NCBI GenBank assembly: GCA_026195255.1
Contig: JAPHSS010000002.1
Span: forward strand, 124,001-188,000
DNA length: 64,000 nucleotides
Direction: 5' to 3'
Source: Gammaproteobacteria bacterium
GTDB lineage: Bacteria; Pseudomonadota; Gammaproteobacteria; SZUA-229
Position numbers and translations under genes: made by a program. The notes under the pieces are model-generated. The model ran no database searches, was not told the origin of the DNA, and saw only the letters and a program-made list of their open reading frames with translations. Within the stretch, counting starts at the first letter, position 1. Each line of letters starts with the position of its first letter. Shown here piece after piece: positions 154-41,986 of the stretch.

Positions 154-312
154 CTCCCTCGGGGAAAGGTTGACACTTTTTGGCGCCCTGTCCCCTGTTG
201 TGATGCCATCAAGAGTATTGCGGAGTCGGTTCACGACACTGCCAGCGCATAGTGGTATGGGTTAAGGGGACAGGGCACAAAAAGCAGTGACCTTTCCCCG
301 AGGGAGATGTTC
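141..312. repeat. MITE-like inverted-repeat element, copy 1
   Basis: Two long imperfect arms face each other. The left arm is about 150-196 (ACATCTCCCTCGGGGAAAGG..., ending CCTGTCCCCT) and the right arm about 264-310 (AGGGGACAGGG..., ending CCCCGAGGGAGATGT). They enclose a ~67-bp centre. A second copy lies at 41796-41986. The centres match over long runs such as GATGCCATCAAGAG and CAGCGCATAGTGGTATGGGT. No transposase is encoded. The inward GGGGACAG/CTGTCCCC ends recall palindromes found beside REP-associated (Y1/RAYT) transposases, but that is a resemblance only. It sits just upstream of the rnpB promoter. Confidence 0.75.
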
Positions 313-754: not shown

Positions 755-880
755 CGCTGCTCGCTCAGCTTACGCCTGACGGGTCGCATGGCTTCGTTGG
801 GCAATGGACATTTACATTTGTAAACTCACATTGCCCGCCTTGCCCTGCAACCCGTCAGACGCAACCTGAACGAGCGCTCT
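755..880. repeat. Long imperfect palindrome (~125 bp) downstream of rnpB
   Basis: The centre is TTTACATTTGTAAA (811-824). GGGCAATG at 799-806 pairs with CATTGCCC at 829-836. Further out, GCCTGACGGGT near 774-784 pairs with ACCCGTCAGACG near 850-861, and CGCTC (762-766) pairs with GAGCG (872-876). There are mismatches and small indels between these blocks. It looks like a dispersed palindromic element rather than a gene. A plus-strand frame spanning 691-996 crosses the end of rnpB and this palindrome and is not considered coding. Confidence 0.6.
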
Positions 881-41795: not shown

Positions 41796-41986
41796 ATTAC
41801 CCTGTTCAGGCGCATCTCCCTCGGGGAAAGACCGCGCTTTTTGCGCTCTGTCCCCTGTTTGATGCCATCAAGAGTTTGGCGGAGTCGGTTTATGACACTA
41901 TCAGCGCATAGTGGTATGGGTTAAGGGGACGGAGCGCCAAACAGCGGCGGTCCATCCCCGATGGAGATGGGCATGAACAGGGTAAT
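41796..41986. repeat. MITE-like inverted-repeat element, copy 2
   Basis: 191 bp with terminal inverted repeats beginning ATTACCCTGTTCA (41796-41808) and ending TGAACAGGGTAAT (41974-41986). Long imperfect arms run inward to CTGTCCCC and GGGGACGG. The centre (GATGCCATCAAGAG..., CGGAGTCGGTT, CAGCGCATAGTGGTATGGGTT) matches copy 1 closely, while the arm sequences differ more but still pair. It fills the space between the convergent nadE and bamD genes and ends four bases from the bamD stop codon, where it may double as a terminator. Confidence 0.8.

Follow-up and report, generated by a model that had tools for sequence, protein, structure and literature searches.

The palindromic element described here is likely a non-autonomous REP dimer (REPIN/BIME-like) of the GGGG-tagged 'TIR' type whose spread is probably owed to Y1 transposases of TIRYT/RAYT type. 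Its high copy number is confined to one gammaproteobacterial genus among the genomes searched. Dimers with unlike halves and GGGG-tagged TIR repeats are already known; what is unusual in this family is the presence of interiors that appear flipped in place at orthologous sites, and the unlikeness of the two hairpin tips of a single element.

Anatomy, copy number and distribution

Two copies lie in the window, which is the whole 64,000-nucleotide stretch analysed (positions 124001-188000 of contig C29 of genome G000, a 3.56-Mb draft assembly of 70 contigs). An earlier note on this DNA had described two inverted-repeat copies at these places with a near-identical centre, and alignment of the copies bears out both points: the centres align, and the outer arms pair in copy 1 (137-182 with 278-323, 78% complementary) and in copy 2 (41796-41835 with 41947-41986, 88% complementary). 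The features of the two copies, in window coordinates unless a contig is named, are as follows.

137-323, no strand assigned: copy 1, whole element, bounded by its outer inverted repeat (own-genome match at 124135-124309 of C29)
161-195, plus strand: copy 1, left arm hairpin, weak, with a degenerate tip (arm model, 62.3 bits at 149-196)
196-265, no strand assigned: copy 1, conserved centre, with an imperfect inverted repeat of its own (two-copy alignment)
266-299, minus strand: copy 1, right arm hairpin (arm model, 68.4 bits at 265-311)
41796-41986, no strand assigned: copy 2, whole element, bounded by its outer inverted repeat (the 191-bp query of the genome search)
41823-41855, plus strand: copy 2, left arm hairpin (arm model, 68.7 bits at 41811-41856)
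41856-41924, no strand assigned: copy 2, conserved centre (two-copy alignment)
41925-41959, minus strand: copy 2, right arm hairpin, with a tip unlike that of the left arm (arm model, 62.8 bits at 41924-41971)

When folded as single strands, positions 141-289 (z -4.14) and 41820-41960 (z -7.42) each did better than all 200 of 200 shuffles. The arm model finds exactly these four arms in the window and no other match up to E=10. Folded individually as DNA, the left and right arms reach -6.1 kcal/mol (z -1.18, with 26 of 200 shuffles equally good) and -6.9 kcal/mol (z -1.85) in copy 1, and -10.1 kcal/mol (z -3.85) and -11.5 kcal/mol (z -3.70) in copy 2.

Inspection of 30 copies showed each arm to be a separate imperfect hairpin. 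The arms are mostly of 31-36 nt and follow the pattern GGGG-A-x-[A/G]-G...C-[T/C]-G-T-CCCC with two kept mismatches. An example is GGGG-AAAG-GTC-xxx-TTTTT-yyy-GCCC-TG-TCCCC, plus variants, in which the tip xxx/yyy differs from copy to copy (CTC/GAG, GCG/CGC, GCC/GGC, CAC/GTG, CTT/AAG and others). The arms are inverted around a centre of ~70 bp that occurs in either orientation among copies, and the arm starts are 113-116 bp apart in 13 of 13 inverted pairs (26 of the 67 own-genome arms listed). The stretch beyond the hairpins, CAGGCACATCTCCATC, is fairly conserved over 51 aligned arms and AGGCRCATCTCCCTCGGGGAAAG is common to both window copies, so the ends are less diverged than had been supposed; in some of the 51 arms this flank is quite different (ATTGCTTTACTC and similar). 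Solo or half elements also occur, and those at L068, L069, L072, L073, L074, L085 and L049 form a single-arm sub-family in which the left flank is common to all (CAGTTAAACA..TTACCCCGCTAAGG), as is a stretch on the inner side that ends in GATGTTCGGTGTAGTAACCCAGTCC.

The supposition that this is a two-copy element was not borne out, and with it falls the first of the conditions that the earlier note had set against its own proposal, a genome with these two copies alone. The 191-bp query gave 69 rows in its own genome that resolve into at least 40 distinct places, 36 of which span at least 120 bp, and the figure of 40 is a lower bound because the count comes from the best 40 of 93 candidates scored. 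The arm model, with up to 114 matches scored per genome, places at least 113 arm hairpins in this genome and, among the matches listed, at least 107 in G004, at least 105 in G002, 29 in G003 and 27 in G001, all relatives of the same genus. Elsewhere in the family, the matches listed number three in G032, two in G025 and one in G016, with none in the remaining 46 of 54 family genomes under stricter filters. A DNA search gave matches in 7 of 58 genomes, namely all five genomes of the genus and, with weak matches, two more from the family. Across 369 genomes of the class, with up to 16 matches scored in each, the matches listed fall in three genomes of the genus, in G119 (seven) and singly in four others. 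The other-family loci inspected in G119 (five) and in G360, G124 and G142 (one each) are lone GGGGACAG...CTGTCCCC palindromes; the G299 locus has no such palindrome by pattern, and tblastn of Y1 proteins against these loci (G119, G360, G124, G142 and G299) gave no match at 1e-4. Named records that contain the centre are the MAGs N1D-Bin_4 and OB6.

Pairing and likeness of the arms

The arms had been described as diverged yet still pairing. This holds within each arm, where the stem covaries, but not between the arms, where covariation does not rise above that of shuffled data. From 42 elements, 41 were retained when the g3 element L093 was omitted and 36 when five near-duplicates or orthologues were also omitted; a 32-element alignment leaves out four long-armed elements from these 36, and a 51-arm alignment holds the distinct arms of up to 36 nt. 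At stem position 9, every one of the 82 arms of these 41 elements has either A-T (34) or G-C (48); at position 7 the states are A-T in 69, G-C in 10 and others in 3. The left arm's own stem contains 28 double-change cells in the 32-element alignment (8.4 in shuffles; 0/500), and the local stem of the 51 distinct arms contains 63 (15.2 in shuffles; 0/500), where cells count sequences rather than events. The absence of covariation in the arms, which the earlier note had named as evidence against its proposal, is thus excluded. When the same inner strand is instead paired across arms, there are 11 double changes as against 9.3 in shuffles (211/500). The share of paired cells is higher across arms (91.6%) than in the local stem (84.7%), but it sits at the level of cross-arm shuffles (91.8%) because these columns scarcely vary, and compensation between arms was rejected as a kept feature. 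Of the 51 arms, 49 lack a pair at position 10 and 35 lack one at position 6, and one-sided pair states such as G-U occupy only 8 cells, compared with the 63 double changes. The covariation and the kept mismatches together indicate that the co-varying structure is a local hairpin with two mismatches.

The two arms of a single element resemble each other no more than do arms taken from different elements: whole-arm similarity is 0.528 compared with 0.538 on permutation, and 3154 of 5000 permutations were at least as alike as observed. The tips of one element, in contrast, are less alike than permuted tips (0.078 vs 0.198, sd 0.042, P 0.0008, n=36), in a test that was chosen post hoc with the arms already seen and that may be affected by the absence of perfect palindromes from draft assemblies. 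The result is similar for the element's own genome alone (P 0.0018, n=26) and for the first three tip bases (P 0.007), and identical tips occur in 0 of 36 elements when 1.02 are expected (P 0.33). An earlier study reports dimers with unlike halves in several REP families, states that the preference for unlike halves 'has no obvious explanation', and proposes an escape from palindrome cleavage by SbcCD (PMC3733652).

Y1 transposase genes and related repeats

There are seven Y1_Tnp matches in the element's own genome, and the five Y1 proteins scanned all match the NCBIfam model of the REP-associated tyrosine transposase: one scores above the 80-bit cut-off and the other four fall short of it. 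Five of the seven genes carry or adjoin repeats of the GGGG type, with continuations other than those of the arms.

L031 Y1 gene: GGGGTCAGAC at both ends
L033 Y1 gene: GGGGTCAGGT at both ends
L035 Y1 gene: ACCTGACCCC on the one side covered
L032 Y1 gene: GGGGACACGATAC at both ends
L034 Y1 gene: TTAAAGGGGTCGGTGAC at both ends

No GGGG-type ends were found at the L036 and L037 Y1 genes. Y1 elements of G009 and G315 end in TTAAAGGGGACGGAGGG and ATAGGGGACGGAGGG, respectively, which are close to the inner end of the arm, TTAAGGGGACRGRGC, and in G001 a hairpin resembling a half element, CGGGGACAGAGCTTGCTTTTTAATCTCTGTCC, recurs around a truncated Y1 gene. No arm lies within ~1.5 kb of the seven own Y1 loci save one chance-like match with two mismatches, and 43 Y1 loci of the family, a subset of its Y1 matches in draft genomes, have ends other than these arms. 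Within the own genome, wide arm pairs enclose no Y1 gene, and no autonomous arm-Y1-arm element was found among the 67 model matches listed and 77 exact pattern matches. In the arm-rich genome G004, the single Y1 match has ends of a type other than GGGG. The lack of a transposase with matching ends, which had also been named as evidence against a mobile hairpin, thus holds in part, related end motifs being all that turned up, and the link between the family and these Y1 genes is one of end type and not of a matched pair. In the Y1 elements of L031, L150 and L157, one side bears two to four tandem units of the end motif (CTCTGACCCC or GTCTGACCCC).

The earlier proposal of a mobile single-stranded hairpin of the Y1/RAYT type pointed in the right direction, given the many copies, the presence or absence at orthologous sites, the REP-like imperfect hairpins and the Y1 genes with GGGG-type ends, but its reasoning from arms that pair with each other did not survive. 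TIRYT genes are described, in one study, as Y1 genes with GGGGWSAS ends whose TIR repeats are dispersed and dimeric (PMC3733652), and another places most TIRYT in subclass 2.1 (PMC6006769). Like the TIRs of TIRtrons and TIRYT, the family has GGGG-tagged inverted-repeat ends that are dispersed, often dimeric and in some cases self-complementary, in genomes that bear Y1 genes. It differs from them in that each arm is an imperfect hairpin that keeps two mismatches, and in that the search turned up no Y1 gene bearing these arms. The motifs of the arm are GGGGAAAG/GGGGATGG on the outside and GGGGACAG/GGGGACGG on the inside; GGGGWSAS is fitted by GGGGACAG, at many inner ends, but not by GGGGACGG, GGGGAAAG or GGGGATGG.

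The family resembles the REPINs, BIMEs and REPs of RAYT (TnpA_REP) in being an inverted pair of intergenic hairpins in tens to hundreds of copies, with an imperfect stem, a variable tip and unlike halves, and differs from REPINs and BIMEs in its long conserved spacer, outer inverted repeats and interiors flipped in place. Among the canonical features of REPs, it has short imperfect, multi-copy and intergenic hairpins, in inverted pairs of fixed spacing; none of the seven own Y1 loci is a cognate RAYT gene with this repeat on its flanks. The 51 arms have a CATC/CCTC-type flank and a GGGG foot, with neither a GTAG (GTRG) nor a CGTC tag there. Stem mismatches are kept in the arms as in the REPs of E. 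coli, and for the latter it is stated, in one study, that the mismatch bulge is required and the loop structural (PMC8266576).

MITEs such as ERIC, Correia/NEMIS and YPAL are palindromic, intergenic elements of 100-200 bp in tens of copies. They share the size and palindromy of the present family, which differs in consisting of two self-folding hairpins, with no proven terminal repeat or target duplication.

Orthologous sites and inverted interiors

Two sites were compared across relatives for occupancy. At site 2 the element is present in G000 and G002, G001 is empty, and in G004 the gap contains different copies. At site 1, G000 and G004 have the element; it is missing from G001 and also from G002, whose flanks are 92-95% identical. 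Because G004 shares part of the left flank at site 1, a loss in G002 is likelier than a gain in G000, so this relative probably lost the element. No clean insertion boundary or target duplication was established at the two sites compared, and occupancy is biased toward presence since the loci of other genomes were mostly fetched for holding the element.

Interiors were compared for 20 orthologous pairs, ten with G002, the nearest relative, and ten with G001 or G004. Of the ten sites shared with G002, three have an interior inverted between colinear flanks and seven have it direct (five by interior scoring; L012/L224 and L017/L102, which were cut by the interior finder, were judged direct separately). 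The clear-cut case is L014/L109, with flanks 95% and 90% identical, in which the interior is 91% identical when flipped and 56% when direct, and the same rare long-tip arm is on the left in one genome and on the right in the other. At L005/L205 the scores are 0.84 flipped and 0.61 direct, and the arm with the GCG tip moved with the flip; at L004/L215 they are 0.84 and 0.64, and the arms changed too. The direct sites L001/L161 and L027/L110 are 99-100% identical. In the comparisons with G001 and G004, L024/L090 (G001) is strongly inverted (0.80 vs 0.66), L043/L221 and L006/L171 are weakly inverted (each 0.70 vs 0.64), L002/L225 and L010/L201 are direct, three pairs are undecided and two could not be scored. 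Long-tip arms, which are rare (L014, L029, L040, L068, L074 and L085) and carry an extra tip hairpin, GCTGCCCA...TGGGGC or similar, can be used as markers of such flips. A description of in-place flipping of such repeats was not found among the literature listings searched or in PMC3116915 and PMC3733652, whose text lacks the word 'inversion'.

It could be argued that the flips are artefacts of assembly, or that other copies replaced the originals independently without any inversion, in a family that is an ordinary decaying repeat. The genomes behind the flips are drafts of at least 70 contigs, near-palindromes assemble poorly, and the arms of L004/L215 are altered besides the interior; nevertheless, the conserved flanks, the transposed long-tip arm and the gap between flipped and direct identity at L014/L109, together with the GCG-tip arm that moved along with the interior at L005/L205, make this explanation unlikely.

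Within-arm covariation is also compatible with a structured RNA, in which the hairpins would act in transcripts at gene ends, for instance by stabilising 3' ends or as a terminator or insulator. This alternative can also draw on copy 1, which lies directly upstream of rnpB, and on the setting of 26 own-genome elements, 9 of which are between convergent, 2 between divergent and 11 between tandem ORFs (the others being 3 inside mechanically called frames and 1 at a contig end), in which the excess of convergent gaps is not significant (9/22 elements vs 4/24 window gaps, Fisher p 0.10). It is less favoured, and we hold it to be quite improbable, because Rfam yields no match over the elements at gathering scores (only RNase P is found in the window), because one-sided pair states are few, and because an interior that lies in either orientation at orthologous sites implies that no fixed strand is transcribed. 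A classical MITE, in which the outer inverted repeat CTGTTCAGGCACATCTCC would be the terminal repeat of a DDE-type insertion sequence with the inner hairpins as passengers, would account for an outer stretch that is conserved past the hairpins and inverted in both copies. The covariation, however, is in the arm hairpins and not at the outer ends, the outer flank is quite different in some arms, and solo arms occur, so there is very little probability left for this origin. A protein-coding reading was rejected: the reading frame that had been noticed as open through both copies is not a feature of the family, since the number of cores with a given frame open ranges from 0 to 11 out of 36, and core lengths are spread over the three remainders modulo 3 (17, 11 and 8).

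To return to the REP dimer, a Y1 (HUH) transposase of TIRYT/RAYT type, supplied in trans, may recognise the hairpins as folded single strands of DNA, and the family could have spread in this way. By analogy with the REPs of E. coli, the lower stem and its mismatches would be the part recognised and the tip a structural filler; a tip that is free filler would explain why tips vary with compensation. Unlike tips might stop the whole palindrome from pairing perfectly and so avoid its cleavage or deletion. Interiors could be flipped by recombination or strand switching between the inverted arms, or by re-insertion, between which the data do not separate. The scarcity of one-sided states (8 vs 63) fits DNA-level or module-wise change better than stepwise compensation in an RNA, and no role in the cell need be assumed apart from possible effects at gene ends. 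A speculative extension, to which we assign only a small likelihood, is an invertible REP dimer, in which a Y1 transposase or strand switching at the hairpins would repeatedly excise or re-copy the interior and restore it to its site facing either way, and selection against perfect palindromes would keep the tips unlike.

If this extension were true, the family would amount to a set of small invertible hairpin pairs spanning the genus, a new outcome of TnpA_REP/TIRYT action. The spread of REP-like repeats and the unlike halves of doublets are unsettled matters for which this family offers countable tests: stem covariation within arms, tips less alike than permuted ones, and flips between two close genomes. 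In addition, it places a GGGG-tagged family in a genus with several Y1 genes of the same end type, where a cognate pair can be sought.

Other repeats were observed beside the elements. A second dispersed repeat lies directly downstream of rnpB (window 763-871) and has matches in G001, G002, G003 and G004, and a palindrome of the type CTCGTTCCCACG...CGTGGGAATGC (window ~1003-1031) belongs to another repeat family that also stands beside elements in L004, L072 and L085. Insertion sequences that target REPs are known (PMC8450116). An insertion sequence with ends GAATGGCACTAAGTTAAG is found in five places at apparently one target inside the arm hairpin, around CGCTCTGTCCC, and contigs break there (ends of contigs at L057, L078 and L083; starts at L021 and L026).
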